Source of the DNA: Sipunculus nudus
Lineage: Eukaryota > Annelida > Sipuncula > Golfingiida > Sipunculidae
Length of the DNA stretch: 64,000 bases
Direction of reading: 5' to 3'
Assembly (NCBI GenBank): GCA_026874595.1
Contig: CM049306.1
Span: 89,756,642 to 89,820,641, forward strand
Shown here: piece by piece, positions 11,036 to 63,354 of the stretch
Layout: every line of letters starts with the position of its first letter
Numbering within the stretch: the first letter of the stretch is position 1
Program-made: the position numbers and the translations under genes
Notes under the pieces: generated by a model
What the model saw: the letters and a program-made list of their open reading frames with translations, nothing else
What the model was told of the DNA's origin: nothing
The model's database searches: none

Positions 11036-11334
11036 GAATTCGCGCATGATCTAGAGATCATATACAAGGAGTAGCCCAAACTCAAAGGTTATGAAAAACC
11101 GGTTGTAAGCCTGAAAAGAAAAACGGAAAACGTAGGTGGTGTTAATGGTGGCGCCAGTGATCGCGCCCGGTCTACCTTTTTTTAATTCTCTGAGTAAGCC
11201 AATGGTTTCAGTAAAATAATTTGGCCGGTACAATGCTATTTCAAATGGGAGGCTCTATTTTTATGTTAGAGTAACACAAGCGAGAGGTTTCCCTTTTCAA
11301 AATCTGAAAGTGAATGTTAAACTGGTGGGGTGCC

Positions 11335-11620: not shown

Positions 11621-14597
11621 GTAGGATAGAAGTTCAGTTGGAGAAATCTAAGTGATGCATCCAGGAGTTCTAGATAGGGTACCAAGTGCAACTTCTTGGG
11701 GGGGGGGGGCTCCTAAATTTTTAGACCTTCTGAAATATGCCCCCTAACCTAGTTTTGAGGTGAAATTTCACATTAGGACAACAGTAAAGTGACATATAAA
11801 CGATCCCCTGTGCTGTCAGTCTGTTGCAAGAATTTGGAGGGCGGGTTACTCTGCATTGATCAGCAGATGTATAGAGTAATTGGTAATGGAAAACAAGGTC
11901 AGAACGAGAAAAAAGACATGAATGGTCCATTGAACATGCACTAGTATATAGTGGAACAGCACACTGCGGTACAAAGGAAATATGCTTATAAACCAGAACA
12001 GTATACGTCATCATGTTGTGATAATGCACGCCATATGTTGTGTCTCTGCTTTAAGTTAATATACCTTGTCCTGTGCTTACGACTATGTACTTGTACATGT
12101 ACCAGCTCGTGATATTACTAAGTAAAATGTAATAATGCATGCTGAGACTCGGTGTTGATATGATAGTACTATCATGTTATAGAGGCTACATGTCAGAATG
12201 GTCTCAAGCAAGCCAAATGGGTAATTCAAAAAGGTGACAGCTTTTATCACAAAGTGAGTCTTGACCACAACAACAGTTTTGATGTTGTTACACTGTTTGA
12301 CGGCACGGATATCTTAGTCCGTTCCTTCACCCTCATTATCCTGTTTTCTCAATCATGTTTTAGCAAGTCAAAGAATGCCAACACTTTTTCACCCTTCGGT
12401 AAAAAGAGTAAAAATGCATAATTAATCATTTTAGATATAATAGCCTCCTTCTGTCACTTTTCTGTTAACAATTTTAAACTATTTTATGAGAATCTATTCT
12501 ATTCTATAGCGACATCTTACCACAAACCTGTGAAATGGACATGACGGGGAACAGTGATGACGTCATAATGGACGTTATGCACAAAAGAGGTGTCCATATT
12601 CATGAGACAATGACCAAGAGCTGTCAACCCCATGTTTACAGTGTGGCCTGTATTCTCCTCTTGCAAGGCTTCCCTGTTACGTCACACACTACTTCATAAT
12701 CGTATACCTGAAGATCAAACAATGGTCACCTGGTAACGACGCCATGAACCACAGATATATGTGAGACATGTCAACCAGGCCGTAAATTTATTTAAATTAA
12801 TATCATGTATATTTTACTTTGGTGACTTGGCGACAGCTTAGTCAAGAAAAGAACCCAAGGTGGTTATCTTTAAATTGACTTTAATAGGTGAAATAAAAAC
12901 GCTTCTTACAATGTCCCCTTCTATATACACCCTCCGCTAATCACAGACTCTTTAAGAATGCACGATTTGATTCCGTCTCCGTCCATTGAAAAATGTTATA
13001 AATTTAAATAATATATAACATGTTATGAACAATATGTTATGTATCAAATATACAGGGACTTCTCTAGAAACTATTAAAACAAAAGAAAATATGAAAATAT
13101 ATACACATTGCCCATACGTTGTATACTCAGCAAACTTATGTAGCGCAATATCTAAGAAAGAAGCAATTGTCTTTACTATGAAATTTTGGATAACAAATGC
13201 AGACTTTACCGAATATATGTATTTGTAAAAAAGACTGCATGTGTAAGCTTACGACACCCGCTTATTAGTTCGGTAAAACTACGCATATAGCATGGGGGGG
13301 GGGGGGTTGACGCAATTACCCCACCCCTATAGTCTTGACGCCCTTCCAATTATCTATTGTTATAAAATCATGCAGAGACAGAAACTGGAATTGAGCACAC
13401 GCAAGCAAAACTTTATAAACTTTTTAAAATTATTTTAAAAGACCCTCATCTATTTATAAAATGAGACAAACAAATGTAAACATGCAAAAGAATTAAACAA
13501 CATTGAAACATTAAAATATTAATGTAAGACAAACCACACCCCATTATAATCGATGCTATACTCCATTTTACTCACTCGCGTTTATCTTGAATACAACCAG
13601 TAGCTTCAATTGTTTGTGATGACTACATTTATTGAAAGTTAAATTATCTGTTGCATACTCTGACGCATCGTCACGTGAATACACTCATAAAGTATGACTG
13701 AAAAGGGAAGATATTCTGCTCGGGGATAATTTCATACATAACAGTGCAACATTGGGCGGTTATTAGGAGAAAATACGTAAGTTACTATGCAACCCCTGGA
13801 TAGGATGTTCCATAGAGAAAGAATAGGACCATTCATTATTTTGTATAATTTTACCTAATTTGATAATTAAAAAAGTAAACAACTTAAGAAATCATATTGA
13901 TACATCGGAAAACTTAATGTAAAATGAAAATGACACAATAATTCATTTTAAGTCTTTCATTCTTTATCACTATTTTCAATCATACGTACTGATAAAACGT
14001 CTGTATCAAGGAAGATCCTAATACAATTGAAACACGAACAAAGAAATGTGCCAAATAATAAAACTTTACAAATCTCACTCTCTGAACACATCACGAAAAT
14101 TGTAGTGTAAAACGAATGTACAAAATTGTTTTAACAGTAACATAACAAAGAGCAATTTGTTTGCAATTTGCCTAAACATGATATGTGTAACAATAATGAC
14201 ATGGTTATTAACTCAAGGAAATTTGGTTGTTTGATTACAATTTTACATGCTGATGGATTCAAGCCAGATAACATCAGCAGCAAATATATACATATACATG
14301 TATATATAGCTAAAGCTCTCATGGGATATTGCTAATAAACAGCAGCAAACATATTTATAGCTACATGTGCAGCTTTCTTTGGAAAATAGGGTCACACCCT
14401 GCAAATGTTGTAGTTTTATGGCTTTATAAATATTCACCATCAAGATATATATAGCTAAATATATTTCTTTGATGAACCACAAGCAGATATAGATGTCACT
14501 TTGAAGAAATGGCGTATATAGGATAATGTTACATTTTATAGTGATAACTACTGAATATACAGAAAGAGTGAATATAGTCCATCACAAAGACAGGTGA
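11621..14597. other. Non-coding stretch downstream of the receptor gene, copy A
   Basis: No supported gene. Contents include two G homopolymers (11700-11709 and about 13292-13306) and a perfect CRE palindrome TGACGTCA at 12558-12565, conserved at 35305-35312. Small AT-rich open frames either do not persist in copy B or have simple composition. Confidence 0.5.
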
Positions 14598-16769
14598 TTA
14601 TTTTAACGCTGCCCGTAAACGGGGCCAAAATGTATTTAGGTGATCAACCAGTCCGTCTCCTGGCCATTCTATGTACGTGTGTGATCGTAACATGGTCACC
14701 AGGGTGCGCGGCATTTCCGACAGTGGGACGTCTTCCAGGAGGACAAGAACTATTCTGTCGATTCCTCGTTCTATCAGGTCCAGTCGAGCCATGTGTACCT
14801 CAAACTTACACCAGCTACTTCGGACAAAACTTCGGGATAAGATAAACACAGTCCTGCGGCTGTTTGAGATGCTGTTCAGGATGTTGTCTTCTATAGGGAC
14901 GCCGGGAATGAAGTCTCTCTGGTGAAGGCACAAACGCAGAGGTTCTTCTCCATCTTCAATATTAGGGACCAGTTGGTCGTACACCCAGGGACTATCATGG
15001 TCACAGTGCGAGACAAAAACATCATATTTAAAGTCAATCAGCTCTTGTTCAAGCTCCCTGTACAAAATCCGCCTCATCTTAATCTGGAGACAGGCATACT
15101 TTATATCCCATCTGTGCCTGTAAGCCAGTGCTGACACAGTTAGTAGGACTGCAAATGTGATAAGTAATCCGAGGATTGCATACAACCACTGAAGCTTAAG
15201 ACAACGCCTTTCTAAAGTTGGCAAAATAAATGACTTGACTCTGGTGAATGCAACGTGCTCATCGTTCAGTTGACAAAATACTCGATTAAGCGATACTAAA
15301 TTTTTCTTATTTCTCTGAATCCATCGTAAGAAAGACAGTGTGTTGCAGGTGCATTCCATAGGGTTTCCTTCAAGGTTAAGTCTAAAACTTGTTCTCTTTC
15401 GGCCAAAAGCTGTGCTGATGGAGCTCATGGCACTGAATGAGAGTGCACGCAGTCTGTTATGGGACAAATCAAGATGTGTGAGATTATTGAGGTTAGTAAT
15501 ATCAAATGTGAACTCAGTTATCAGATTATAAGACAATATCAACCTGTTCAGCTTTTTGTTTGCGCGTGATCCAAATATGTTTGGCGATAAAATTGTAATA
15601 TCGTTCTGGGACAGTTCCAGAAGTGCCAGGTTGGTCAAATATGGCAGCGGCCCTCCATTATAGGACAACAGCTTACCCAAACGGTTGTTGTTCAAAATTA
15701 ACTTGGATATTGCAAGAGCCAGGGTGCCACCGAAAAACGAAGCAGATATGTTCCTACAATTATTATTTGACATATTAAATGTTAGCTCAGCCATAGGTTG
15801 ATCGGCATGAATCCTCCCCATCAGTTGCATGATGTTATTATTTGAAGCATCTACGTATTTCAAATGAAATGGTTGTTTTCCGGCTAATGTAATGTCTGAG
15901 TTCATTATAATAACGTTATACACGCTTCTTGCATACAGCCTTTTTAGGCTTGATGGCAAATGCAAAATTATGTTATGACCAATATTATTATTTGTCTCAC
16001 GGTAGCCAATATTCTGCGTTTGATAGCTTATGTTTATCACGTGAATGGATGTCAGTCTATACAGTCCAAGAAATAGATTGACATTCAAGTTATTCTCACT
16101 GACATCATAGACTTCCAAGTTGGGAACACTTTGACTGATACTTATCGCCATATTACTTATTCTGTTTCTGTTGATTTGTAGTATTTTCAAAGATTTAGAT
16201 TTAATAGAGTTCCAGAAATCCTCCGTTATTCTGACCTCGCAATACCTTGCCCAGTGTCCGACGATTTCGGTTAAAATCAACTCATTCAAATAACCCTTTG
16301 GAAGCACTTTCAGGGCAGAGTTAAGTTGAAAAAACCTGTCTCGTGTCAGGTTTACATTGTAGGACAGATCCAGGAGTTTAAGATTCTTTAACGGACGAAA
16401 TGTCCCTCGAGAGACATTCGTGAGGTTATTATTGTTCAGTATCAAAGTTTCTAGCCTGGCAAGGCCATTGAAAGACTGTTCGTACAAATGCAGTAAAGAA
16501 CATCTATCCAGCTTGAGTATATGTAGATTTGTGCAGTTAATGAATGAATTATTATTAATCTGTTTAAAGCTGTTACCTGAAAGATCGATGTTTACGACCC
16601 TTTTGTTGCACAGGTATGTTGGCAGCTTACTAAGTGACTTCGAGGAACAGTTGACAATCACGGAGCTGTTTAATAATTTTTCGCAAATGCAAGGTCCACA
16701 CGGGTAACAGGTTAATCCATGTGCTCCGGTGCTAATCAATACAACCAGAATCACAATAACTGCTCTCAT
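14598..16769 (-). CDS. Toll-like receptor, single exon, 723 aa (copy A, intact)
   Basis: The order is signal peptide (1-18, hydrophobic after MRA), Cys-rich LRR N-cap (about 21-54), about a dozen leucine-rich repeats (58-465; LxxLxLxxNxL pattern), LRR C-cap with CxC (469-523), one membrane span (528-550) and cytoplasmic TIR domain (about 580-720). TIR box 1 reads FKYDVFVSH (D583), box 2 has RDFIPG (R618, P622, G623) and box 3 is FW (714-715). This is the single-cysteine-cluster type of Toll-like receptor, which senses microbial or self ligands at membranes and signals through TIR adaptors such as MyD88. It is somewhat short for the family. The start MRAV is chosen because the frame above it differs between copies A and B by a 1-base indel, and a hydrophobic signal follows directly. 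No intron breaks the frame. The ligand cannot be inferred. Confidence 0.93.
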   Translation of the reverse strand: MRAVIVILVVLISTGAHGLTCYPCGPCICEKLLNSSVIVNCSSKSLSKLPTYLCNKRVVNIDLSGNSFKQINNNSFINCTNLHILKLDRCSLLHLYEQSFNGLARLETLILNNNNLTNVSRGTFRPLKNLKLLDLSYNVNLTRDRFFQLNSALKVLPKGYLNELILTEIVGHWARYCEVRITEDFWNSIKSKSLKILQINRNRISNMAISISQSVPNLEVYDVSENNLNVNLFLGLYRLTSIHVINISYQTQNIGYRETNNNIGHNIILHLPSSLKRLYARSVYNVIIMNSDITLAGKQPFHLKYVDASNNNIMQLMGRIHADQPMAELTFNMSNNNCRNISASFFGGTLALAISKLILNNNRLGKLLSYNGGPLPYLTNLALLELSQNDITILSPNIFGSRANKKLNRLILSYNLITEFTFDITNLNNLTHLDLSHNRLRALSFSAMSSISTAFGRKRTSFRLNLEGNPMECTCNTLSFLRWIQRNKKNLVSLNRVFCQLNDEHVAFTRVKSFILPTLERRCLKLQWLYAILGLLITFAVLLTVSALAYRHRWDIKYACLQIKMRRILYRELEQELIDFKYDVFVSHCDHDSPWVYDQLVPNIEDGEEPLRLCLHQRDFIPGVPIEDNILNSISNSRRTVFILSRSFVRSSWCKFEVHMARLDLIERGIDRIVLVLLEDVPLSEMPRTLVTMLRSHTYIEWPGDGLVDHLNTFWPRLRAALK

Positions 16770-19099
16770 TTTGACTGGTTTCTTCCTTCAAATGATGTAC
16801 CTTATGCTCATTGAAAATAGACTAAATCATCCCCTTCCCTACAAGGAAGCGCGCATTCAGATGTCCATGTCTTGACGTGATATCGCACAACGCCAACGCT
16901 TTTTGTGTATCTGTAGGCAGGAGTATGCGTCTAATCATAAGCTAACTATCCGCTGCATAAAATACATGGTTCGTTGACTTAGCAGTGATTGACCTGAAAA
17001 AACGAGACCTACTGATGCGTTATGTTCAAGCACTTTGCAAAGGAGGATTTTGCAACGCCATTCCACGCTCACTATGAATAGAGCCATATTTACTGTAAGA
17101 CCCCCATTTGATTGTTCAACTGAACAAACAACTATGCAGTATAACCAGTAATATAAATAAATATACCTTAGTTTAGGTCCTTGATTTACTTTGCCGAATT
17201 GGCTATAATTGATTTTAATTCGACCTTATTTTAGATTTAACATGCCAGTTAAAAATGTAAGATATCTGCCATGTTAAGATTTATAGTTTAGTATATTAGA
17301 TTCTTGTTATTTAATTTTCATGTTTACATTCTTCATTTATGTTGTTACAAACATATCTGATCTTAGTAAAGATAGGCCTTTATTATTGAAATGTGTTGCT
17401 AAGAAGAAGGAGTGATACATTATTCCCGTAATATGGACATTTCTAATTGTTATGTTTTCTATCCAGGAGCAGATCCAGGTTTTTTTAGAGGACCCAGCAG
17501 GACTAATGACAAAGCTTAAAATGGTCCGGTGGGGGGGGGGGGGCTAGTCCGTAAAACTAGGTCAATAACCCTTCAAAAGATGGCTGTAGTTCACGGTTGA
17601 TAAAAAGGGAAGGGAGGGGGGAGGGGGTTCGGACCCAAACCCCCTCTGCATCCGCTTCTGCTTTCATGTAAGTAAATGTAATACCAACACAATATGTGCT
17701 TGGATATACTGAAGTCTATTAAGATGTATTTAAAATGCCAAATAGGTATATGTGAATAATGCTAAGTAGGGCCTAACAATTTTTTCCCGATTTTTATATT
17801 ACATCAAAAAGGCACTGAAGATCCTCGCTGGCTCAAGCTTACAAAAAATATTAATGGGGCCCAGTCACCTATACAGCATGTTGAATTCACCAGAAAAATT
17901 GCTTCCTCCCTTTAAAATAAACCTGTAACAGTCAAAATGTTGTCTTTAACCCGTTCGCCCTCTCCTGTAAACGAGTGTAAGAAACAGTGGACCGGGCGCG
18001 ACCACCGGGGTCAACATAAACACAGCGTGTGGGGCCGTGTGCATCGAGGAGCCACAAGCTGTGTCAAACAGGGGATGCATAGACTTACTTAGCCCCAAAA
18101 ATGTGATACATGGCTGAAACATCGCGTTTTTTTTAAACAAGTTTTATTGTTCAAATACAAATACATTCATACATATATAAATACAAGAGACAAAAATACA
18201 AGGACAGAAAATATATAAACATATGACATACAAGAAGACAAGTACAAAACGCAGGTGTGGTGTTTATAAACATTCAGGTAATTTAAAGTTGTTTTCCATA
18301 AAAATTGTCTATTAAAAAAAAAAATTCTAATGCGTGTTGCGGCTCAAATTCGGACCTCCGGTCACGCGGCCTTGTTATGGTTAACAGACACACGTGGACT
18401 GTGTTTACAAACATGCAGAGCCATGACAAGCACGTGCAAGGTACTTAGACTATGTGCTGGTATGGTTTTGCTGGGAAACTTTTGTATAAAGCAAAACTGA
18501 ACTGATAGCGTGAAAGAATAGGCATAGGATTGTTCCTGATTATGTCCCTTTAAGAGTGACACGCTGTCTTTCGTTCTGAGGTTTAAGTTTAACTGGCCTT
18601 TACAAAATTTTAGCACGTGAACTCAGAGGAACCCACAATGCATTATTATTTTCACCTATCCATAGGTAGAGATTTTGTTTGGCATAATTATTATTTTGTC
18701 ACCTTAATTTTCCGATTTCATTAATACTCACTGAGGATATACCCTACTATGGTCCGAATAATTTGACCAAGTTTCAGTGACCTTGACCCATTTTTCAAGG
18801 TCACGGGGGTAAAATGTACGATTTTTAAAAGTGATTTTCTTCTTATCTATAAGGGTAACGGGCAAATGGATGAAATATACCAAAAATATTTGATTCCTAA
18901 CTTTATGGGGGTTCCGCATCAAATTCACTTAAGGGGAACCATATGAAATAGGTGACTTGGCGGTTTTCTATTAGGCTACGATTCCGGGAAAACCATATTG
19001 TCAAACTATATGGAAAGTTGAAACTTTTACGGACATGTGCCATTTACAACGTAGGAGTACAGTGGCGATATCTAAAATGATCATTGAAAAATATGCAAA
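16770..19099. other. Upstream and intergenic stretch of copy A with copy-specific insertions
   Basis: No gene. Compared with B (39547-40650), copy A has an extra 560 bp (about 17100-17660) containing a G homopolymer and the GGATCCAG/CCGCTTCTG-like signature of a dispersed repeat. It has a further extra 0.7 kb (17860-18550) that includes the inverted dispersed repeat. No clear TATA box was found above the receptor start. Confidence 0.5.
18355..18560 (-). repeat. Dispersed repeat, inverted copy
   Basis: The block is the reverse complement, diverged, of the repeat at 10795-11035. Shared landmarks are AACAGACACACGTGGAC, CTGGGAAACTTTTG and TCCTGATTATGTCCCTTTAA. It is present only in copy A; in B the matching site is closed by TATTAAGAGTGACAC. 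Confidence 0.65.
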
Positions 19100-49130: not shown

Positions 49131-49329
49131 GTATCCGCCAAAACAAAGTTTTGCGGATACTATGTTTTTGACCGGGTTCCACCGCCGCCGCTGCGGCGTT
49201 CGTTTCCGGAGAACTCCTCTGAGACTACAGGACAGATTTCTCCAAAACTTACACAAATTATCGGGTCACATGTGAACTGGTGCCTAACCAAGTGACCTTG
49301 ACCTCTGACCTTTCCTCTCTACCCAGTGT

Positions 49330-50740
49330 CCATTTGTGCGTCTGTTTCCACACATAAACCCATATATCTCAAGAACCGTTCGACCGATCAGGAAAAAAAA
49401 TTTACACAAATGTAACTCAGGGATAGCTTTATAACATACATAACAAAAGGTGGCGCCACCTGCAACCATGTTTGCACAGTGTCCATCTGTTCATCTGCCT
49501 GGGGTTAAAATCACTCATATCTCTGCAGTGGTTTGACTAATTCACCTAAAGTTCGGCATGCGTATACATCCTAGATAGCTTTCTTGATTTTATGACAGGT
49601 GGCGCCACCTACATTCACGTTAACGCTCCACAGATAAACCCATATATCTCGGGAACCGTTTGACCGATCATGAAAAAAAAATTTACACAAATGTAGCCCT
49701 GGGCTAGCTTTATAACATAAACAACAAAAGGTGGCGCCACCTGCAACCATGTTTGCACAGTGTCCATTTGTTCATCTGCCTGGGGTTAAAATCACTCATA
49801 TCTCTGCAGTGGTTTGACTAATTCACCTAAAATTCTACATAGTATACATCCTAGATAGCTTTCTTGATTTTGACAGGTGACGTCACCTACATTCACGTTA
49901 ACGCTGCAGACATCCAAGCTCATATCTCGGGAACCGTTTGACCAATCAGGAAAAAAAATATCCACAAATGTAGCCCTTGGATAGCTTTATAACATACACA
50001 AAAATGGTGGCGCCAGCTGCAGCCATTTTTGCACAGCATCCATCTGTTTGTCTGCCTTAGGTTACAATCACTCATATCTCTGCAGTGGTTTGACCAAATT
50101 ACCTGAAATTCAGCATGCTTATACATCCCGCATAGCTTTCTTGATTTTATGACAGGTGGTGCCACCTACATTCATGTTCACGCTGTAGACATCCATGCTT
50201 ATATTCCGGACTCATTCAACCAATCAGGAAAAATTTTTACACAATTGTAGGTCTTGGATAGCTTTATAACATACACAAAAATGGTGGCGCCACCTGCAGC
50301 CATTTTTGCACAGCGTCCATCTGTTTGTCTGCCTTGGGGTAAATCACTCTTATCTCTGCAGTGGTTTGACCTAATTACCTGTAATTGGGCATGCATATAC
50401 ATCCTGGATAGCTTTCTTTATTTTATGACAGGTGACGCCACCTACATTCATGTTCACGCTGCAGACATTAATACTTATATCTCCGGAACCGTTTGACCAA
50501 TCAGGAAAAAATATTTACACAGATGTAGCCCTTGGATAACTTTATAACATACACAAAAATGGTGGCGCCACCTGCAGCCATTTTTGCTCAGCATCCATCT
50601 GTTTGTCTGCCTTAGGTTAAAATCACTCATATCTCTGCAGTTGTTTGACCAAATTACCTGAAATTCAGCATGCTTATACATCCCGCATAGCTTTCTTGAT
50701 TTTATGACAGGTGGCTCCTCCTACAATCATGTTAATGTGG
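49330..50740 (+). repeat. Core tandem array, period about 278 bp, about five units
   Basis: GGTGGCGCC recurs at 49449, 49730, 50006, 50283 and 50561, spacings 281, 276, 277 and 278. Each unit also carries CTCATATCTCTGCAGTGGTTTGAC and, half a unit away, CATATCTCGGGAACCGTTTGACC. The unit may therefore itself have grown from two related halves. Partial units flank the array. Confidence 0.9.
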
Positions 50741-50841
50741 CAGAGATCCATTCTAATATTTAACACATGTAACTCTATATCCCCTTGCCATTCAATCCAT
50801 GCCTAACTTCAACCGTCCTTCTCTGATTTTGGCGGATACAC

Positions 50842-52568: not shown

Positions 52569-52572
52569 GTAC

Positions 52573-52800
52573 TGTCAACGTTTTTAAACGCTTACTATGT
52601 GGGCAATATCCTTACCCACATGGAAGGGTCCGATGGCAGAGAAGACCTGAGTATTCCGCGGATAAATCTTGGCTTGAATCAGCTGGGTATCTTGGCTTCC
52701 ATTAAGTCGGGTCTTCTGCGCATGTCCAGGGGCCAGTTCCGGGGTGTCCAAATTCCAGAGGTCGACATCTGGCGCCGGTGTTTTCCCTACATCTACTACA
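52573..52800 (-). repeat. 3' LTR, 228 bp
   Basis: On the minus strand it begins TGTAGTAGATGTAG and ends CGTTGACA, keeping the TG...CA ends. It matches the 5' LTR except at 8 positions. Its first 60 bases recur at 53360-53419 through the tandem duplication. Confidence 0.92.
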
Positions 52801-53978
52801 TTCCTCCCCGTCTTGAAACACAAGCTCATATAGGTGGAACAAATGGAGATATTCAGGGATTAAAATATAACAATTCAATATCCCCTGACAAGTTTAAGAA
52901 AGCATTTTTTTAAATCCTGGTGTTACAGACTATATTCGACAACATGACATACTGCAAAATAAGATACGTCAACTCGCCATACCTAAGGAACATGCTTAGT
53001 CCTAAAAATTACTATTGTGCTCCCTACTTAGCAAACATTTTCAATTAATAGTGTGAATTTAAGCAAAAGGTCGCCTTGGTCCTCCAGCTGGGTCGACTGG
53101 ACCAAGACAATTAGTAGCATACAGCTCGCATGCAAAGTATCGCTGTCTTGATCCTCCAGCTGAGCCGACTGAACCAAGACAGTTAGTATTTGCATGCGAG
53201 TTGTGACTCTTCGGCTAGACCAACGAGTCAAGATAACTGCCTTAACAGAATCAAGCAACCCCCTTACTAAAATGAGCCATAGAGCCGAGCCGCATTGCTG
53301 TTAAGTTGTTGGAGTAGGAAGGTGAGTGGAACCTGTTTGATTTTACTCAACTCCGTGACGGGGTGTCCAAATTCCAGAGGTCGACATCTGGCGCCGGTGT
53401 TTTCCCTACATCTACTACATTCCTCCCCGTCTTGAAACACAAGCTCATATAGGTGGAACAAATGGAGATATTCAGGGATTAAGATATAACAATTCAATAT
53501 CCCCTGACAAGTTTAAGAAAGCATTTTTTTAAATCCTGGTGTTACAGACTATATTCGACAACATGACATACTGCAAAATAAGATACGTCAACTCGCCATA
53601 CCTAAGGAACATGCTTAGTCCTAAAAATTACTATTGTGCTCCCTACTTAGCAAACATTTTCAATAAATAGTGTGAATTTAAGCAAAAGGTCGCCTTGGTC
53701 CTCCAGCTGGGCTGACTGGACCAAGACAATTAGTAGCATACAGCTCGCATGCAAAGTATCGCTGTCTTGATCCTCCAGCTGAGCCGACTGAACCAAGACA
53801 GTTAGTATTTGCATGCGAGTTGTGACTCTTCGGCTAGACCAACGAGTCAAGATAACTGCCTTAACAGAATCAAGCAACCCCCTTACTAAAATGAGCCATA
53901 GAGCCGAGCCGCATTGCTGTTAAGTTGTTGGAGTAGGAAGGTGAGTGGAACCTGTTTGATTTTACTCAACTCCGTGAC
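52741..53978. repeat. 619-bp tandem duplication at the 3' end of the LTR element
   Basis: Two units, 52741-53359 and 53360-53978, start with GGGGTGTCC and differ at only a handful of positions. The unit spans the first 60 bases of the LTR, the purine tract, the 3' untranslated region and about 30 codons of the TatD C terminus. Each unit contains a direct repeat (CCTCCAGCTG(G/A)G..CGACTG.ACCAAGAC) and a CTTGGTCC/GGACCAAG hairpin. The near identity makes it the youngest event in the element. Confidence 0.92.
52801..52812 (-). promoter_or_regulatory. Polypurine tract of the LTR element
   Basis: The minus strand reads GACGGGGAGGAA immediately before the 3' LTR start TGTAG. Such tracts prime plus-strand DNA synthesis. 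A second copy with partial LTR lies at 53420-53431. Confidence 0.7.
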
Positions 53979-54971
53979 GATGGGGAGGATGTCCCATGGC
54001 GATCTTGACAGGTAAGGGCAATCCGATTCCACCAGTAGCTTTTCCAGTGGGATGGCCTGTATTGCTGCTCATAGGGGCTCCACCCTAAACACAAGGTTGG
54101 TGATTCCAAGGTGGCAATTTGGGAGTGTGTCTAGCCAGGCAGCGGCTTCCCCTTCACCTCCAGTGAAACAGTGCCTATGTATCTTTTGCTCCTGGAGATT
54201 TCTATTTTGTAAAAGCTGTAACACTTGCCTAGCTGCGGAGCCGTCGCCCTTATCTCGACAATGTAGAATCAGCACCTTACTTGGGAAACGTCCAGTGATT
54301 CTGAATATCCTGTCAAGAAAATTGCGCTGAACACGACAGCTGCCAGCAGAGGAACTATATGAGTCCAGTCCAACTTCCCCGATGGCGATACACTGCGGGA
54401 GACTCAACATTTGGGTCAGCCTGCAAATATAGTCATCAATGCGATGGCCGTCCTGTAAAAGCCTGGGATGGACCCCAAAAGCGCACCGCACTCTGTTATC
54501 ACGTCTGATATGAAGATGGTCTGGCCAGTGCTCTGGGTACACAAAGTTTGCGACTATTCCTGAGATATTGACCCCAGCACTGGTATGAGACTCAAGGGAG
54601 GCCAGGCTGTCAGATCCTGTTCTACTAAGTAGCATGTCCAGGTGTGCATGCGTGTCGATGAGGGCAGGATGTGAAAAAGGTGCAAACTCTGGAAGGCTGT
54701 CAATAATAGCCCTAGGTAAACGGCTACAAAGGAGCGCCAGGGTATCCCAGTGTAGCAGGCCCGCAACACAAGAGGGTGGGTCGGCTGATATGGATTCACT
54801 GGGGCTCACCCATTTATGGGTGGCAGACAAGGCAGCCAGACGGACCTGTTCTTCAGGTGAGAATTCTTTTTTTGTGTGTAGGCCCTCCCGAACTACAAAA
54901 TGTTGAAGGTCCTGCAAGGAGGCTTTACAGTATAACTGCTGGATGCTTGTTATGAGCTCCCTGCATCCCAT
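53886..54971 (-). CDS. TatD-family metal-dependent nuclease ORF in the env position (one internal TGA)
   Basis: In the 300-residue open part (54069-54971) the TatD motifs come in order: IDTHAHLD (H108, H110), FGVHP (H168), IGEVGLD (E199), LHCRD (H237), HCFTGG (H267). The frame meets TGA at 54069-54071. It then continues in the same frame with the family's last metal-site motif (VESDCPYL) and ends NAARLYGSF at a TAG (53886-53888). TatD proteins are TIM-barrel Mg2+ nucleases of DNA or RNA; the human relative TATDN2 is the closest type by layout. The first 100 residues are not TatD and link to the overlapping C2H2 ORF. It sits after pol, on the same strand, inside the LTRs, so it belongs to the element. 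All metal ligands are kept despite the TGA, which is one C-to-T step from CGA. Confidence 0.85.
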
Positions 54972-55267
54972 ATCCCATTGACCACTGGCCTGGGGCTTGA
55001 CTCATGTTCATGCTTCTTTAGGAATGACACATGGCCCTCCTGCACATGGCAGGCCCAGCATGCTGTTTCAACCTGGAACCACCAGGGAAGATGCTTTCTA
55101 ACAACGTGACGTCTCAGGTGAGAGTCCTGGGTGTGGCAGATGGGACACAGTATGACCTGTCTGCGTTTTCTTTTCTTCTTTACTGGAGTTGGGACATCTG
55201 GGAGAATTTCTTCCGCCATCTCCTCCTCATAATCAGGGCAGAACTGTGACTCATCCGACAGCTCCAT
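54950..55267 (-). CDS. Two-finger C2H2-like protein, 105 aa, overlapping the TatD ORF
   Basis: An acidic N terminus is followed by a basic cluster (KKKRKRR, 30-36) that could be a nuclear localisation signal. Then come two zinc-finger-like units: C41-x2-C44 with H54 and H59, and C70-x2-C73 with H86/H88. The last 22 bases overlap the TatD ORF in a different frame. Either the two are one protein split by a single-base indel, a frameshift joins them, or they are separate cistrons. A strong 3' splice site lies 73 bases upstream of its ATG. In the element it occupies the place of env. Its likely role is to bring the nuclease to nucleic acid; this is inference. Confidence 0.65.
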   Translation of the reverse strand: MELSDESQFCPDYEEEMAEEILPDVPTPVKKKRKRRQVILCPICHTQDSHLRRHVVRKHLPWWFQVETACWACHVQEGHVSFLKKHEHESSPRPVVNGIWDAGSS

Positions 55268-55340
55268 TTGAACTAGAGTTTGTACTGGTTTTATTTTTGT
55301 TTTGTTTTGTTTATTACAAACACTTGCGTGCCTCGCAACC

Positions 55341-55365
55341 CTGTAAGAAATAAAGAAACTGACGT
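55341..55365 (-). promoter_or_regulatory. Candidate 3' splice acceptor for the cargo ORFs
   Basis: The minus strand reads AGTTTCTTTATTTCTTACAG then G, a near-ideal pyrimidine tract plus CAG. It stands between the end of pol and the C2H2 start. Possible donors on the same strand are GTGGGTAAGG in the 5' LTR (63161-63170) and AAGTAAGTC in gag (about 61195). Splicing there would make a subgenomic RNA, as env-carrying retroelements do. Confidence 0.5.
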
Positions 55366-55429
55366 TATTCCTTTTATTTCATTTCTTGCCCTTATCCTAC
55401 TTAATTAGATGAGTAATGCCTTATCCCAA

Positions 55430-55755
55430 CTAATTACTTGGCGACTCCACCCTGTAGTCCTCGAACCGCTCTGGGCGCTTTATTAGCCTTCCCCTTCTGG
55501 TTTTGTTATGGGGCAGGCCCTCTTTCTGGTTGGGATTTGCTCCTTGAGGCTTGTTTGAAGCTTCATTTTCTCCTTGGGGCTCTGCTACTGGTACTAGATC
55601 TACCGGGTCTGAGCCCAACGTTTGATCACAACCTTGACTATCCACAGGGAAGAGTTTATTCCCATCCAGGACAGAGAAGCCCATCCCAGCTTTACCGTTT
55701 GCTGGACTCCCCTGATCCCGGTCAAGAACATCCTCCTCACGGAAATACTGGTTCC
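55430..55755 (-). pseudogene. pol C-terminal tail, shifted by one base
   Basis: The frame reads ..EEDVLDRDQG.. and ends with a basic RRGRLIKRPERFEDY motif before a stop. This is typical of the very end of Ty3/gypsy integrases. It follows the integrase frame after a 1-base shift near 55750. The integrase frame itself runs on to 55600 with unrelated residues. Confidence 0.6.
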
Positions 55756-57966
55756 TGGCTCTCCTAAGCCATAAGGGAATGGATCCATCCGTGCAAGTTT
55801 AAGGTTATCGTGATGGATATACTTATCCCTTTTCCTTGACCTCACAAGATAGATCGGGTGCCTCTCCTGGACCACAAGGTACGGCCCTTTCCAAATGGGA
55901 CGCAGCTTCGGACTTATTCCCTTCCTTGCCGACTTATCCAGCTGGTATACTAGATCTCCTGGGTGATGGATGGTTTCATTTAGTTTTCGACTATACTGAT
56001 GACTCTGGGAGGCTTGTTGAGCTTTCAGCTTTGTCCTCACATGATGGTGAATATCTGCCATCCGGGCGACTGGATCTGAGACCCAACAATTGACAGTCAA
56101 AGACCGTACTTTTTCCTTGAATGTGCCCAGCAGCAAGTCTATGGGTTGGAACACCTCTCTGCCGAGCATCATCATGTTAGCCGAGTGTCCGGTGGCACGG
56201 TTGATCATGGACCTGAGAGCTCTACTAAGGATAGGGAGATCTTTATCCCAGCCCTTCACATTATCTCCGATATAGCACCTGATCATTTGCAACAGCGTCC
56301 TATTTTGGCGTTCTACCTGGCCATTAGAGGCCTGGTGGTAAGGCGTAGTCCGAGTCTTTGCTATGTTCATCAATTTACAGAATTCCTTAAACAGGCTTGA
56401 TTCAAAATGTGTTCCCTGATCTGTATGTATTGAAATTGGACATCCAAAGATGGAGACAAAGTTGACAAATAACTTCAGTGCGACTGTTTCTGCACTTTGT
56501 TCTGGGAGAGGGACACATTCAACCCATTTCGAAAATTGATCTGTAATCATCAATATGTACTTATTGTTTGCTTCACTAGGCATGAAGGGTCCCAGTATGT
56601 CCAGGTGAACCCTTTCCATGGGGTATCCTGCATGGAACGACCTTAACTGCTCTTTCATTTTCCTAGATTTATTTTTGTTCTTATTACAGGTAGCACAAGA
56701 CTTGACAAATAGGTCAGCATCTCTTGTCAATAGGTGCCAGTAAAAGTTCTGTTTCAGCCGATCCACTGTTTTATCTCGGCCCAGGTGGCCTGCTGTCTTT
56801 GTACAGTGCGCCAGTTCTAGGATTTCATTTTTCAATGATGCTGGCACGACGAGCAATGAGCGGGGCAAATGAGGGTCTTCCCAATTATAGTAGAGGACCT
56901 CGTCCTTTACCGATAGTTGTTTCTGAGAAGTCCAAAGTGTTCTGGTTGCGGGACTTGTCAGTTGCCATTCAGACTGTATAGGTTCTCCCTTGTTAAGCCA
57001 TTGAAAGATTGGCCTAAGGTCTGGATCTTGTTTTTGGCACTTTGCAATCTTGGCTGACGAGTATGAGTCTGTCCACTTGATCTGCGGGTCACTCTGCCCA
57101 CAACCGCTCTGCCCAGAGTCTGATTCTGAATCTTCTGCTGAACTAGACTCTCTGTCATTGGCAGAAGTCTCTGTAGCACACACTTTGAAATTTCTTTGGT
57201 CGGAGCCAATACCAGTACTTCCAGGAACTTGGCCCCCCAGCGATTCCGACTGAGCCAAGGCCCCTAAGTCCGGCATAGGCTGACCGGATGCCCCGGTGTC
57301 TAGAGCATCTCCACCACCTTCCAGCTTAGCCGACTGAGTGGCAGGGCATGTCCCAGCCACCTGAGGCAACCTCGTAGCAATGGGCACTACATCATCCACA
57401 TCCATCTCAAATCTTTCCCACTGCTGACTGGCTCGAGTACAATACTTGCAACCCCCACAGGGCAGATCAGTTAGATTCACACCCGCCTCATAGCAGTTAC
57501 AACTAGGTAAATGGTCCGGGATGCGCGATAGGGCGTCTGCATTGCAATGTCTAACGCCAGGGCGATGCAGAATCTTAAAGTCATATTGTCCCATCTCCTC
57601 CAACCATCTAGCCAGTTGCCCCTCTGCAAACCGAAACCGTGCTAACCACGCCAGGCTGTTATGATCCGTGCGAATCAGAAAAGGTCTTTCCAGTAGGTAG
57701 TGGCGGAAATGCCTGCAAAATCGCACCACGGCCAACAGCTCTTTCCGTGTTGTACAGTATTTCCTTTGGCACGGCAGGAGAACGAAACTGGCATATGATA
57801 TCACTCTTTCCACGCCATCCTGTAACTGAGCTAGTTCTGCGCCAATTGCACTTTCAGATGCATCACAGTCTAGGATAAATTGGCCAGTTGGATGCGGAAA
57901 GGCCAATCGAGGAGCAGATATAAGAGTATCCTTCAAGCGCTGAAAGATTTCATCATGCTCGTGAGT
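55600..57966 (-). pseudogene. pol, RNase H and integrase part
   Basis: The RNase H domain (about 1-145 of this frame) has DCDASE, RKELLAV, RTDHNSL and NADALSR, giving the D-E-D-D metal ligands. The integrase has an H-H-C-C zinc region (HCTKTAGHLG ... CATC), then LDILGPF, IHTDQGTHFES and NGQVERQNRTL carrying D, D and E. Last is the GPY module (PIWKGPYLV). There is no chromodomain. RNase H would remove template RNA and integrase would insert the DNA copy. The frame starts right after TAG at 57967-57969 and is offset from the RT frame by a 1-base shift near 58045. Confidence 0.88.
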
Positions 57967-58013
57967 CTATGTAAATACCTCTTTCGGCTTGACCAAGCTG
58001 TAGAGACTAGCTG

Positions 58014-59792
58014 TTAACTTGGCGTAGTTTTGCCGTGCGCCCTGTGGTAGTTAAGGTACCCTAGGAAAATTTCCAATTCCTTCTTGTTGGCTGGTCGAGG
58101 CCAGTTGGCAATTGCGTCCTTCTCTTCTTCTGTCATGGCAACACCTTCAGAGTTGACAGACCGTCCAAGGAATTCCACTTCTTCCTTTAACAGGGAACAC
58201 TTTCTTAGTTTCAGCTTGAGGTTGAAGCTGCGGAACCTACAGAACACCTCTTTCAAATTGGCTATGTGGTTTTGAAAGGAATTACCTAGGACAATAACAT
58301 CGTCCAGGTAAACCAACACCTTGTCCCATGTGAGTCCCTGCAAAACAGTATTCATGGCTCTCATGAATGTTGCCGGGGCGTTACAGAGCCCAAAGCCCAT
58401 CCGGGCATGCTCGAACAGACCATATCGGGTGATGAACGCTGTTTTCTTCTTTGAACTCTCTTCAAGCTCGATTTGATAATAGCCAGAGGCTAGATCAAGA
58501 CAACTAAAAAACTGAGTGCCTGCTAACATGTCAAGACAGTCTTCTATGAGTGGAAGCGGGTACTGGTCTTTAACAGTCTTTTCATTTAGCTGTCGGTAGT
58601 CAATACACCAACGGACTGTCCAATCTTTCTTTCTTACAAGTACTGGTGCAGACGCCCATTGGGAGGCTGATGGCTGAATGACTCCTGCAGCGTTCTCAAA
58701 CCCAAGAGGTGTCCGGCGCATTCGCTGCTTGACAGGCGTTGCTGAGCCAGTATCTATCTTATGTTTAATTCCCTGTAGGCGACAAAGATCAAGGTCATGA
58801 CTAGCAAAGATGTCCGAGAACTCTAATAGCAGGTCACATATAAATTTCAGATTATCATCTGAGTGTGTCTCTTTACATTCCTGAAAGATCGTAAGCAAGT
58901 GACTGGGCAACATTACCTCGATCTCTGACAGAGAGAGTGATCCTATTTGACATGAGGTACTCAGATTCTCATCACCTTTAGAATCAGTGGTTTCTTCAGC
59001 AGACATGGTCCTTATGTCAAAACTTCCCGTGGGAACTAATTGTGTGGTGATGCTCCCAATCACCTGATCAACTTCTATGGCATTACCTATACAGATTTGC
59101 GGCTTCAGTTTCACGGGATGATTCGTGTCATTCAGTACATCTACCAACCCTTTATTTTTTATTACCGCACTTGTTGGTAGCAAACCTTTAAGATTCTTTT
59201 GCAGCTCTACAACATACTCATGATCTTCGCCTGGAGCAACTATCTTGACTGGAATGGAGGTAAGTGTTGCTGGTGGGATACAGACCTTGGAGCAGGTAGC
59301 GACTTCGTAGACGCGACAAGACCTACCAGAACTTGTGTTCCTTAAGGGTGCCCATACCACCTCATTTGGCATGTTGATGCTATGAGTGTTAAGGTCTATC
59401 TTACATTGCTGGCCCACCAAGAAGTCTAGTCCCAGTAATACAGGGTCGCTGATGTCAGCGGCATAAACATCCCACAGGTATTTTGATTTCCCTAGGCCTA
59501 TTTCCACATTGTTAACCCTGTATGCTGGTATGGTTGAATCCTTTTTCCCTATGCCCCTCAATGTGACTACCTTGGAAGCTGAGTCAACTAGGTCCTTCAA
59601 AAAATCTATTTTCACAATCGTAACCTGTGCAGCACTGTCTACTATGGCAGATTTATGTACACGATTTATGGTGACCGGAACAGTAAGGCTAAGGCCTGTG
59701 CATTCATTATTATCAAGTTCACTGTCACAGGAAAAGCTTGTAGCATTGGTGACAGCACCTGGTGGTATTACAGTGATTTCTTTTTCTGTCAT
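58014..59792 (-). pseudogene. pol, protease and reverse transcriptase part
   Basis: The aspartic protease has IVDSAAQVTIV at about 50-60, with Ala where most families have Gly (D-[ST]-G-A). The reverse transcriptase runs from about residue 365: VIQPSASQWASAPVLV, RWCIDYRQLN, SCLDLASGYYQI, FGLCNAPATF and catalytic VYLDDV. The frame ends at TAA (58014-58016) in the connection domain after a single-base shift, so pol cannot be read through to RNase H in this copy. The first ATG (59792) follows a short overlapping open frame from gag, and the true gag-pol transition is unclear. Confidence 0.88.
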
Positions 59793-59925
59793 CCTCCAGG
59801 TTTTCCTTGTTCGCTAATTGATACTATTCCTGAGGAGTCCGGGTATGGGCATTTCGTCAATATCTTGTCTAATGGTGTGTGGCCTAATGGTTCAGCCGTG
59901 TCATGGCCACTTGGCACGACCCCTA

Positions 59926-60602
59926 CTAGTTTAAATCTGAATCTTTTGTGCTCTCCCCCTGCTGTTTCCCTTGTTGGGGATGTACAGATCGCTTTTTCTC
60001 AGGGCAATCTCTAGCGAAATGGCCCCTTTGTTGACAGTGGAAACAGACAATCTCGGTAGCCTCTGTTCGTGGAGGTGGTGTAGGGACACGATGAAGATTT
60101 CTCGCCTGTCTGTCTCTGAAGATCAATTCAACTTTATCCTCCAGAATGGTCATTTTTTGCAAAAGGTCCGAAATGTTTTTCTGTTGCTGCTGATATCTCT
60201 TCTCAGCCATGCCTTCCCTGTCCACATCTGAAAGTTTTGGAGGTGCAGGTGGTGTTGCCATTACTCCCATCTCTTTGACCCTTGGATTGCCCTGTCTGAT
60301 TTGTGGGTTAAAGATTTTTGGTCTGTAGTGTTTAAACTGTACTGCTCTGACATCCAGTCCGAGAAGTCTGACTGCTCCTGAGCGAAATGCACCTGTCTGG
60401 CAACATGAGAGGACTTCCCAAATATCACTCGGCCTTTGTTTATGTAGCTACTAACATATCTCAGCGCTTTGTTGATGCTGCGAGGGTTCTTATCCATTGC
60501 GGATGCTGCGGCATGTTTGTCTGCACAGCCTCTTAAGAAATGCTCTACTGCGATCTGTTCTAGTGTGCTTTCTCTAGCACCTGGCAACCCATCCATGAAC
60601 AA
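59926..60602 (-). pseudogene. gag C-terminal part with CCHC zinc knuckle
   Basis: Two frames joined near 60310, at an A run, carry the end of the capsid-like region and then a proline-rich linker. A nucleocapsid knuckle CFHCQQRGHFARDC (C-x2-C-x4-H-x4-C) packages RNA in the family. A basic tail follows and stops at 59926. The frame upstream joins the preceding gag part after a shift in a six-G run near 60650. Confidence 0.8.
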
Positions 60603-62302
60603 GAAGAGGACCCTCTGACTAAATTCTTCAAGTGTTTCCCCCCTTTCTGCTTGACAAATTGCAGGGCCCTCCTGACAGTGATGGGATCCTCTTCAACACC
60701 AAATCTTTTTCCCAGTTTCTTTTTTAGCAGTTTATAGTCATGTTCAATTCTTAGCTTCCTCACAAAATCCAGTGCCTTACCTGAAAGGCTGTCCACCAGT
60801 CTGTCGGCCTTTTTATGTGTTGACCATTTGTATCTTGCGGCATATCTTTCAAACTGAAAGATAAATGCCTTCCAAGTTCCATCACCACAGAACTGTGCCA
60901 ATTTAGGCGGAAGCGGGCTTGCTCGACTTGCTCTACTGGAGTGTCCTCTTGCACTAAGGGGTCTAGAATTCGATGCGCGGTCGCTTGAATCGGATGTACT
61001 ACTGCTTGAGCTAGAAGCTCTATGGCGCCCCCTATGTCTACCTCTATGTCCACTCGAGTCAGATTCCGATGAGCTGCTAGATCGCCTGCGGCTCCTGTAG
61101 GAAAAACTTCCGGCACTGCTTCTATCAGAGCTACTACTAGAATCTCTACGTGTTTTGGGTCAGCGATGGTAGGGCTTCGGGCTGTAGTTCTTTGACTTAC
61201 TTGACGGACTTGTATTTACGTTGTGGACATGCTTCTTAGAGTCTATTTCTCGATGCCTGACTTGATCTGGCCCTGCATGATCACGTGGGGTATGGTCTTG
61301 TCGCCGATATCCGTGTGTCCTATCAGTTGAATCAGTCCTCTCAACCATCTTGTCATGTGATCTGTATTGTCTGTTATGACTAACAGCAACCCCAGTGAGA
61401 GGCTCTGGGTAATGTCTTGAGACAGGATTGTAGTAGCCAGGGGACTGATTTCTTGCATGACCAATGGCGGGTGCCCTGTGGCCCTGAACATACCGGTCTC
61501 TATTATCAAATTCATCCAGGCAGAGTGAATAATACGGATGTGTGGGAGGTCCCCTAACCGAATGACTCTCTGATCTAAATTGTTGGTCCTGGTACCTGGA
61601 TTGGTGTGTCTTAGATATTTCGTGCTTTGGACTCGGGGCAAGTTTATTTCCCTTTGGGTTTGGCCTATCTGCTTCATGGTGTGGCTCGACTGGGGGGCAT
61701 CTCTGGACAAAGGCAACTCCAAATGTTTGTAGTGGGCCTGGGTTGTAAGAGTTAAACATATTAGGCCTCCTATACTCAGCATTATTGCCTTGACCTTCCT
61801 CATCTGAATAATCATAAGGCAAGGTGGCTGCTGGGCTTGATGTATTATGGTCAGGTTTGTGATAAATCCCCCTCTTAAAGGCTGAGCTATTTGCAGTAAT
61901 CACCTGTTGTATTGTAGGATCAGAATGTAGAGTGGGGGTTCCCCTTTCCTGTATAACATGTTTGGAGGTGTGGGTATTGTTTTCAGCTTTTTCCACGGTT
62001 TCCATATTGTGAGTGGCTTGGTGCCTTATTTCATTTGATTGTTCGTTACCCGGTGATGTGTCAGTTTGAACCAAGTGGACAGGCAATACTACTTTGCCAT
62101 TTACTAGGAGATCTTGCCAGTCACTGACCTTTGTTCCAGTAGCCTGGGCTAGCTGAGGGATGTCAAAATCTGGGTGTTCCTCACGAAGTATCAGAAACTG
62201 CTGTGCATTGTCCATATTTATGAGCAGAGGAAATGCTGAGGATAACACCTGCACTGTTACACTGCGCAAATTAAGAGGCATTGTGTTCATTCTTGCTGCC
62301 AA
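60560..62302 (-). pseudogene. gag N-terminal arm, SR-rich linker and capsid-like region (internal TGA)
   Basis: One frame extends from ATG 62302 to 60560, broken only by TGA at 61160-61162. Residues 1-380 are hydrophilic, rich in His, Pro, Asn and Gln, of no known fold. After the TGA comes a 70-residue Ser/Arg/Asp-rich stretch with SYRSRRRSSSSSESDSS-like composition. A retrotransposon-gag capsid segment follows (FCGDGTWKAFIFQFERYA ... KADRLVDSLSGKALDFV). Gag assembles the particle. The long arm plus SR linker is unusual for Ty3/gypsy, whose gag usually begins close to the capsid. The TGA is one step from CGA. Confidence 0.75.
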
Positions 62303-63122
62303 TAGAAGTTAATTGATTGTCTTTTGCCGAGGTCGGGGGGGGGGGTTGAAGTGTTAATATTTGCAGGAAAAATCAATGAAGCAATGTGCAAGAAAAGTAT
62401 TAATGCTTATAATAGTGCTGAGATAAAAGCAAGCACAGCAGTACAACAGACAAGCAATATGAAATAAAATATTTTACTAAGAGGGATATGAATATAATAA
62501 GAATCAGGGTAGTGGCAGGCTCTGTTCAGAAAATATTGGACTAATGACAGGAGCTACTTGCAGGTAATCATACAAGTGGGTCCACACAATGAGAAAAAAT
62601 AGGCCTGAAAATTGTGCTGGTTGAATAATACTGACAAACAGTAGGTTGTCAGCAGAATTATTGTGAAAGAATACTGTCAGCCTTGACTAACAAATAAAAG
62701 TGTCATCAATCCAATAGGACTCAACACGGGTTATGACTGTTTGACAACAGCACTGAGCTACAACAGTTGTCAACGGCGCTGAGCGATAATGTGTTGACAG
62801 CACAGCTGAGCGATAAACGGGAAATCACAACGTCAGGTGGACGTCAAGCGGGGTTGGGCGATAATAACAGAACGCGCCACTACAGTATCAGTTATTCCTA
62901 AGCAGGGAATAAATGACAGTAAAGTAGATGAATGTGGTTCATCTGGACTGAAGTAAACCTAACAAGTGACGAAGTGGTTAGGATAGGCTATAAATATCGG
63001 AAGAGAAAATCAAGGTGATAAACTGAGGAATGAAATCACCGGGGGCAAATGGCTTCCCCAGTGAAAAGTCTCTGCCGATAACTAGCAAAGACACGCTAGC
63101 AACCGATTTATTTCGTCGCCAA
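62303..63122 (-). other. 5' leader of the LTR element
   Basis: Between the 5' LTR and gag, with no open frame. Directly after the LTR the minus strand reads TTGGCGACGAAATAAATCGG, the place of the primer binding site. TGGCGAC-type starts are common there, but I could not assign the tRNA. Plus-strand GAGCTACAACAG and GAGCGATAA motifs recur three to four times around 62750-62860, suggesting short structured repeats. A G homopolymer lies at 62334-62345. Confidence 0.55.
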
Positions 63123-63350
63123 TGTAAACATTTTTAAACGCTTACTATGTGGGCAATATCCTTACCCACCTGGAAGGGTCCGATGGCAGAGAAGACCTGA
63201 GTATTCCGCGGATTAATCTTGGCTTGAATCAGCTGGGTATCTTGGCTTCCATTACGTCGGGTCTTCTGCGCATGTCCAGGGGCCAGTTCCGGGGTGTCCA
63301 AAATCCAGAGGTCGACATCTGGCGCCGGTGTTTTCTCTACATCTACTACC
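63123..63350 (-). repeat. 5' LTR, 228 bp
   Basis: Same length as the 3' LTR, with eight differences. It ends ..TTTACA and starts GG where the 3' copy has TG, a change that would disturb integrase recognition if copied. It is flanked outside by GTAC (63351-63354). Confidence 0.9.
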
Positions 63351-63354
63351 GTAC

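Follow-up and report, generated by a model that had tools for sequence, protein, structure and literature searches.

The stretch analysed here, 64,000 nucleotides of Sipunculus nudus contig CM049306.1 (assembly GCA_026874595.1, positions 89,756,642 to 89,820,641; hereafter the window), carries on its minus strand a long terminal repeat (LTR) retrotransposon at 52569-63354 (Table 1). Its LTRs and a target-site duplication enclose gag, pol, a finger-encoding part and a TatD nuclease domain on one strand, an arrangement pointed out in an earlier note made from the sequence alone and confirmed here by the comparison of the LTRs, by Pfam and by the flanks. The minus-strand Pfam domains are zf-CCHC, aspartyl protease, RVT_1, RNase H, Integrase_H2C2, rve and then TatD_DNase. 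The order of protease, reverse transcriptase (RT), RNase H and integrase by which Ty3/gypsy elements are recognized is present in the window and in its fetched relatives, the aspartyl protease match of the window lying below the curated Pfam cut-offs. The two LTRs differ at 8 of 228 positions (96.5% identity; 220 of 227 positions identical in the blastn alignment), a primer-binding-like TGGCGACG site seen by eye follows the 5' LTR, and the GTAC duplication is called on the assumption that the first base of the 5' LTR has changed. The GC content amounts to 0.45-0.49 at 54001-62000 versus 0.30-0.43 in the remaining window. The window element has decayed; it belongs to a wider group of Ty3/gypsy LTR retrotransposons, and the third gene of this group, open reading frame 3 (ORF3), is the main subject of this work.

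Table 1. Features of the retrotransposon in the window
Feature	Position	Strand	Basis
Target-site duplication GTAC, 3' side of element	52569..52572	.	by eye from flanks
3' LTR, 228 bp	52573..52800	-	LTR comparison
620-bp tandem duplication (52740-53360 and 53359-53979, 99.4% identical)	52740..53979	.	self-comparison
Polypurine tract GGGGAGGAA, adjoins 3' LTR	52801..52809	-	sequence, by eye
End of TatD domain, past in-frame TGA; ESDCPY and NAARLY motifs	53886..54068	-	translation; profile match
Open TatD frame, 310 amino acids; HxH, GVHP, GEVGLD, LHCRD, HRHCF	54069..55001	-	frames, Pfam, alignment
ORF3 N-terminus with the acidic motif PDYEE, a basic segment and two atypical Cys/His fingers	54950..55267	-	frames, alignment
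Candidate splice acceptor (3') ahead of ORF3; pyrimidine tract followed by CAG	55341..55360	-	0 of 1000 shuffles reach its score
Open frame of 788 amino acids with RNase H and integrase (H2C2, rve)	55600..57966	-	Pfam
Open frame of 599 amino acids with protease (weakly matched) and reverse transcriptase	58014..59813	-	Pfam
Zinc knuckle (CCHC), end of gag	59926..60447	-	Pfam
Gag region, several broken frames; weak PNMA-like match below cut-off	60261..62308	-	frames, Pfam
Putative primer-binding site, start TGGCGACGAAATAAATC	63104..63121	-	sequence, by eye
5' LTR, 228 bp	63123..63350	-	LTR comparison
Target-site duplication GTAC, 5' side of element	63351..63354	.	by eye from flanks

ORF3 takes the position of env and encodes about 500 amino acids, beginning with an acidic and basic N-terminus and two atypical fingers; a middle part follows, and then the complete TatD domain. 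In the window copy the finger part stands in a separate frame from TatD, and the earlier note had accordingly described a finger ORF overlapping a TatD ORF. In the long open relatives both parts form a single ORF of about 500 amino acids; the overlap is therefore a frame break of the window copy, which holds one broken gene rather than two. The TatD motifs read by the same note (HxH, GVHP, GEVGLD, LHC, HCF and, past one TGA, ESD) are all present. The window TatD matches PF01026 with an E-value of 6.8e-25 (88.3 bits versus a cut-off of 27) over profile positions 1-179 up to the stop, and the profile search of the genome extends this match to positions 1-253 across the one internal TGA. None of 2000 base shuffles of 53881-55270 gave a minus-strand frame of at least 310 amino acids, the longest reaching 250. 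The single TGA fits decay, since 0.62 stops are expected in the window TatD codons at the divergence of its LTRs and many related TatD matches in the genome are free of internal stops; in the copy at C5:4850051 the Pfam match likewise runs through a TGA. An AlphaFold model from the single window sequence reached a pLDDT of 40 and was set aside.

The 310-amino-acid TatD frame was used as a query against the same assembly (1.43 Gb). With 128 of 199 candidates scored, so that all counts are lower bounds, the genome contains at least 131 TatD matches at at least 104 loci. Stop-to-stop frames of at least 480 amino acids with a stop-free match were counted by eye at 32 of these 104 loci, a number that does not equal that of intact genes: in L011 a truncated pol is joined to ORF3, and L015 and L021 are damaged near their end. 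Around the TatD loci twenty stretches of ten kb were fetched, one of which (L018) came from the wrong place. At 18 of the 19 usable loci pol lies upstream on the same strand, followed by the finger part and TatD; the exception, L009, is internally deleted. Fingers and TatD share one frame of 500-516 amino acids in L009, L015, L016, L017, L020, L022 and L028, and a longer one in L025 (578 amino acids) and L027 (708 amino acids), while the complete TatD profile (1-253) is matched in all five ORF3s chosen for this purpose (E 3.6e-29 to 6.7e-44). A second search, with the RNase H-integrase frame as query, yielded 57 scored loci among 10,253 candidates. At 45 of the 57, TatD follows on the same strand no more than 6 kb further downstream, and at none of them does it lie within 6 kb upstream or on the opposite strand. 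At least 45 of the 104 TatD loci have a scored integrase; six of the 59 seemingly unlinked loci are among the 19 stretches, and five of these six have pol. The layout is conserved across at least eight divergent families, and we have hardly any doubt that LTR-gag-pol-ORF3, with fingers and TatD in ORF3, is the architecture of this element group.

Nine insertions have LTRs and a short target duplication each, and the nine 4-bp duplications, read by eye from the flanks, all differ: GTAC (window), TGCT (L009), CGTA (L010), AATA (L012), ATAT (L015), CTTG (L016), ATAA (L017), GTAT (L020) and CTTT (L028). The LTRs are 100% identical over 206-236 aligned bases in L016, L017, L020 and L028, 97.9-99.6% identical in L010, L012 and L015, and 99.1% identical in L009. 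The identical LTRs indicate that at least three families (L016/L017, L020 and L028) were recently mobile with ORF3 on board. L009 (C7:62422400-62432300) has the form LTR-ORF3-LTR without pol, with its own duplication and an ORF3 open at 500 amino acids. It was considered as a reverse-transcribed spliced mRNA, but its junction lies in the end of the integrase, off the acceptor-like site, and we take it for an internal deletion. A second copy 322 kb from the window element (C1:89487847; L002, L043 and L044 at C1:89485347-89498000) shares its flanks, with 99.9% identity over 1000 bases and 99.4% over 651 bases. It is consequently a duplication of the window insertion and was excluded from the independent count; the element and both flanks were copied about 322 kb away in a young segmental duplication.

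The TatD domain has been inherited together with pol. Distance matrices of RT and TatD correlate with r 0.90 among 10 copies (0 of 9999 permutations as high) and with r 0.59 when one copy per family is kept (n=8; 27 of 9999 permutations); the corresponding comparison with the integrase has too few copies (four copies, r 0.99, 1621 of 9999 permutations; three families, r -0.98). These data bear directly on the explanation that a host TATDN gene or an unrelated repeat merely sits inside or beside the element, through nested insertion or misassembly. As long as the decayed window copy was the sole one known, such an accident was conceivable, and the earlier note had named it, along with absence of TatD from other copies, as the finding that would overturn its proposal. 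The same order and strand at 18 of the 19 usable loci and 45 of the 57 scored integrase loci, the nine insertions in which TatD is enclosed by LTRs and by target duplications that all differ, and TatD distances that track those of RT leave it with almost no probability. TatD is part of the element.

The TatD domain is under purifying selection. Omega, the ratio of nonsynonymous to synonymous change, is 0.098 over 14 uninterrupted TatD stretches and 0.030 over 10 RT stretches (MG codon model, kappa fixed at 1), after dropping the near-copies L013, L015 and L016 from 17 TatD stretches and L015 and L016 from 12 RT stretches. In the inter-family pairs with the fewest nonsynonymous changes, the nonsynonymous proportion (pN) is 0.21-0.35 while the synonymous proportion (pS), at 0.87-0.92, is saturated. 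The metal ligands that define TatD enzymes (HxH, E, H, H, D) are found in an alignment of 12 ORF3 rows hand-chosen out of 20 copies: D218, H220, H222, E312, H352 and H382 (L017 numbering) are invariant and D432 is nearly so. A TatD frame that is still open and selected in many recent copies suggests a function of the nuclease in the service of the element.

The finger module is rich in Cys and His; in the alignment the spacing read by eye is C-x2-C-x9-11-H-x4-H, followed by C-x2-C and further His. HLPWW comes next, and then a segment that closes with PPN(C/S) and a conserved His. The earlier note had spoken of two C2H2 fingers. Two Cys/His fingers are indeed there, but their spacing is atypical and departs from the classical C-x2-C-x12-H-x3-5-H pattern, and all zinc-finger Pfam models remain below their cut-offs on the window and on the given ORF3s.

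The start of ORF3 is located shortly past the pol stop in a different frame (about 70 nt in L017), and in many copies a pyrimidine tract ending in YAG is found upstream of it. Of 1000 dinucleotide shuffles, no more than 27 attain the acceptor-like score in seven of the 15 copies compared (the window, L009, L012, L013, L019, L020 and L022); as L009, L012 and L013 are near-copies, these seven represent about five families. The weight matrix for the splice acceptor is approximate, and L010, L011, L014, L026 and L027 stood outside this comparison. Candidate 5' splice donors occur in the long leaders, with no site common to all families, and were not used as evidence. According to a passage in PMC5408684, the ORF3s of LTR retrotransposons are typically expressed from spliced messages. 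We take the signal in seven of 15 copies as moderate evidence for a spliced ORF3 message and, from these sequence features, favour with some reserve a separate, probably spliced, subgenomic mRNA as the source of ORF3, as is the case for env.

For the origin of the TatD domain, ten element pieces were included in trees and profile, leaving out the window and L024, in which the open stretch ends too early. In a tree with four cellular rows the element TatDs fall on one side of a branch with a support of 99/98. In a tree with seven cellular rows, five bacterial rows form a group of their own (95/95), and the host gene is placed intermediate between this group and the elements; the elements and the host gene form one group in 25% of the bootstrap trees. 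Neither tree has TATDN1 or TATDN3 rows. Over the same stretch of about 150 residues, the score against the element profile is 97.7 bits for the host TATDN gene, compared with 67.1, 58.4, 53.9, 52.5, 51.4 and 38.8 bits for the six bacterial-type TatDs. This host gene (L045, C1:109164500-109166450) is made up of three separate profile pieces over 1.9 kb and hence appears to be intron-bearing. Its E-values are 1.5e-11 to 4.1e-11 against the solved TATDN1 and TATDN3 chains and 7e-24 to 7e-23 against the five best bacterial chains. It is probably TATDN2-like, a name given by elimination and to the part of the gene that was fetched, which ends before the PWD site. The motif IHRHCF is common to the element TatDs and L045, and human TATDN2 presumably has a similar RHCF or MHCF motif. 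The suggestion in the earlier note of a captured host nuclease is favoured by the four-row tree and by the top score of the host gene, but the tree is not firm. On balance an animal TATDN2-type gene seems the more plausible source, and the capture probably happened once.

We propose that these elements form a Ty3/gypsy group with a finger-TatD ORF3, that the TatD domain was captured from a TATDN2-type gene, and that the nuclease has a role in the element life cycle; to this proposal as a whole we assign a probability of roughly two in three. Judged by its family only, the ORF3 protein would be a 3' nuclease of RNA or DNA that depends on metal, with the fingers keeping it on nucleic acid. It may act in germ cells on element RNA or on RNA-DNA hybrids, such as R-loops over the element or intermediates of cDNA replication. 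Retroelement replication makes RNA-DNA hybrids, and a retroelement must act in the germ line. As described in PMC12709183, TATDN2 acts on RNA and resolves R-loops, medaka tatdn2 is expressed in germ cells and its loss leads to an accumulation of R-loops, and TatD proteins are 3'-5' exonucleases on single-stranded DNA and RNA, several of them with apurinic/apyrimidinic (AP) endonuclease activity. Given the activity of the TATDN2 family and the hybrids formed in replication, we hold action on RNA or hybrids for the most likely task, with two close rivals; by analogy with TATDN2, action on RNA-DNA hybrids in particular can be put forward tentatively.

The first rival places ORF3 at the cDNA or integration step, where it would trim 3' ends or remove RNA primers or abasic sites before integration. 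The exonuclease and AP endonuclease activities just cited would suit this task, as would an enzyme encoded by the element and co-inherited with its RT, yet most Ty3/gypsy elements manage without TatD, and so do some relatives of the present group. We regard this role as somewhat unlikely. The second rival is counter-defence, in which ORF3 degrades small RNAs or RNA targets of germline silencing (the PIWI-interacting RNA, or piRNA, pathway) and the element benefits by escaping from silencing. An accessory gene that is sometimes lost, as TatD is, is what counter-defence genes often look like; the 2'-O-methylated 3' ends of piRNAs, however, resist many 3' exonucleases, and we judge this role rather unlikely. 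The most specific form of our proposal, that a TATDN2-type germline nuclease of R-loops or RNA was turned into a tool of the element, guided by the fingers, made from a spliced ORF3 message and clearing hybrids or silencing RNAs at the element, is still more speculative and is offered as a doubtful idea.

Several observations weigh against the proposal. The omega of TatD is threefold that of RT, and a metal ligand is lost in each of three of the eight copies left out of the alignment (an HxH histidine in L011, the ESD stretch in L015, and Glu to Gln in the GExGL motif of L021). Twelve of the 57 scored integrase loci have no TatD. Two of the four TatD-less loci viewed (L040 and L041) retain only the beginning of ORF3, and a finger-only ORF3 of 275 amino acids is present at L042 (362-1186) and at C5:57820902-57821726; both of these finger-only genes keep the middle part and lie behind integrases related to that of the window. 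TatD can therefore be dispensable. In terms of expression, the acceptor-like score is reached by 259-986 of 1000 shuffles in L015, L016, L017, L021, L023, L024, L025 and L028. With respect to origin, the support of the element clade is 75/79 in the tree with seven cellular rows, where the very long row 3gg7, a solved bacterial-type metalloprotein similar to TatD, adjoins the elements, and this weakening has lowered our confidence in a TATDN2-type source and, slightly, in the proposal as a whole and its most specific form. The whole-domain ORF3 profile finds its best solved chain in bacterial YcfH (104.7 bits; TATDN3 67.9, TATDN1 50.4), and a C-terminal PWD motif is common to 3gg7 and the element TatDs but is missing from the other four chains compared.

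Two further explanations draw on these observations. ORF3 could mainly be a DNA- or RNA-binding finger protein with TatD as a passenger or as a catalytically dead domain, as the finger-only ORF3s and the finger-only ORFs of about 278 amino acids at 59 further loci would allow. An omega of 0.098 over the TatD domain, metal ligands that are invariant or nearly so in 12 rows and open frames in many copies make this improbable. Alternatively, TatD may have been captured from a bacterial TatD similar to 3gg7 instead of an animal gene, for which the position of 3gg7 beside the elements, the shared PWD motif and the bacterial identity of the best solved relatives speak. The row of 3gg7 is very long, though (2.88), and its placement is unsure according to the tool; moreover, 3gg7 ranks last among the seven cellular TatDs by profile score (38.8 versus 97.7 bits for the host gene), the remaining five bacterial rows are separated from the elements, and IHRHCF is shared with the host gene. 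A bacterial source is thus unlikely, and a TATDN2-type source remains our preference.

Among known systems, the env-bearing Ty3/gypsy elements (errantiviruses) have the same LTR-gag-pol-ORF3-LTR order and a 4-bp target duplication. Their ORF3 is an envelope protein, whereas the present one encodes a nuclease, and no clear transmembrane stretch was seen in the 12 rows scanned, several of which are without the N-terminus: the top 19-residue hydropathy is 0.81-1.44 in 11 rows and a borderline 1.62 in L025. Plant Tat and other Ty3/gypsy elements with an archaeal-type RNase H, chromodomain or dUTPase similarly add an enzymatic or binding domain to gag-pol, but differ in both the domain and its place. 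Animal TATDN2 has the TatD domain in common with ORF3, and the presumed host TATDN2 (L045) leads the seven cellular TatDs in profile score; unlike it, the element ORF3 has fingers and sits in an intronless LTR element. The closest parallel is found in Juno and Vesta of bdelloid rotifers, described in PMC5408684 as gag-pol LTR elements with a captured 3'-5' exonuclease as ORF3 in the env position, which according to that paper was acquired at least twice. Their nuclease is of the DEDDy type (DnaQ/RNase D-like, DEDD), while that of the present group is a TatD metal hydrolase fused to fingers; in the given TatD-bearing ORF3s TatD is the sole Pfam match above cut-off and no DnaQ-like exonuclease was detected.

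The word TatD is absent from the main text of PMC5408684 and from PMC6338049, a section of which lists chromodomain and DnaQ-like exonuclease among the known accessory domains. No open-access paper listed in our searches, which did not extend to repeat libraries or subscription papers, describes a retrotransposon with a TatD domain in its title or at the start of its abstract. Two other papers name a human TATDN2 retrocopy (PMC5408686) and mention TatD in a table row of an oyster gene (PMC10778899). For the giant squid, PMC6962438 reports a TATDN2 gene model among the non-Hox genes in the Hox cluster, together with transposon-like models; we treat this as a lead to such elements in cephalopods, not as evidence of them. 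TatD-carrying LTR elements are real, widespread in this genome and under selection and, to our knowledge, previously undescribed. A metal-dependent TatD nuclease hereby joins the short list of enzymes that LTR elements have captured for their third gene, and it does so in many divergent families within a single genome. ORF3 is a defined protein with a testable activity, and it may connect retroelements with a class of enzymes for which a link to R-loops and the survival of germ cells has lately emerged. If the reading as a TATDN2-type tool is true, an enzyme of genome protection has become part of the element, which then brings along a copy for itself. The finding is also a warning that invertebrate gene models named TATDN2 may be transposon genes.

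The finger module occurs both with and without TatD. Besides the finger parts of TatD-bearing ORF3s, the search with the L042 protein found the 59 finger-only loci mentioned above, with frames of mostly 278 amino acids and none within 20 kb of a listed TatD locus or scored integrase. At the one locus read (L051, C15:36110100-36113300) ORFs of 334 and 230 amino acids adjoin the finger-only frame; within its 3.2 kb there is no pol match, the neighbouring ORFs have no Pfam match above cut-off, and a scan of viral contigs with the 230-amino-acid ORF gave no match. These loci possibly represent another mobile element or an endogenous virus that shares the finger module. Scans of IMG/VR with the window TatD frame and both pol frames revealed no relative, and a plasmid search no match. 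The ORF3 alignment retrieved from IMG/VR two TatD-encoding contigs at 25% identity, which were set aside.

Open TatD genes of 251-368 amino acids were also encountered on the small contigs C61, C62, C64, C65, C66, C69, C72, C74, C75 and C89 of the assembly. They mostly have top profile scores, several of these scores are identical on different contigs, and the one gene read (L048) groups with bacterial TatDs in the trees; the genes look like bacterial DNA, from a symbiont or a contaminant in the assembly. Within the window, the 620-bp tandem duplication takes in about 60 bp at the outer end of the 3' LTR together with the polypurine tract, of which there is hence a second one, and part of the 3' untranslated stretch; the duplicated copy L002 has it as well. 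Left of the element, the sequence has itself been duplicated repeatedly, with long blocks of about 83-94% identity between 5064-17091 and 21096-45311 at offsets of about 17-23 kb, and at positions 49311-50760 a unit of about 278 bp is repeated about five times in an array.

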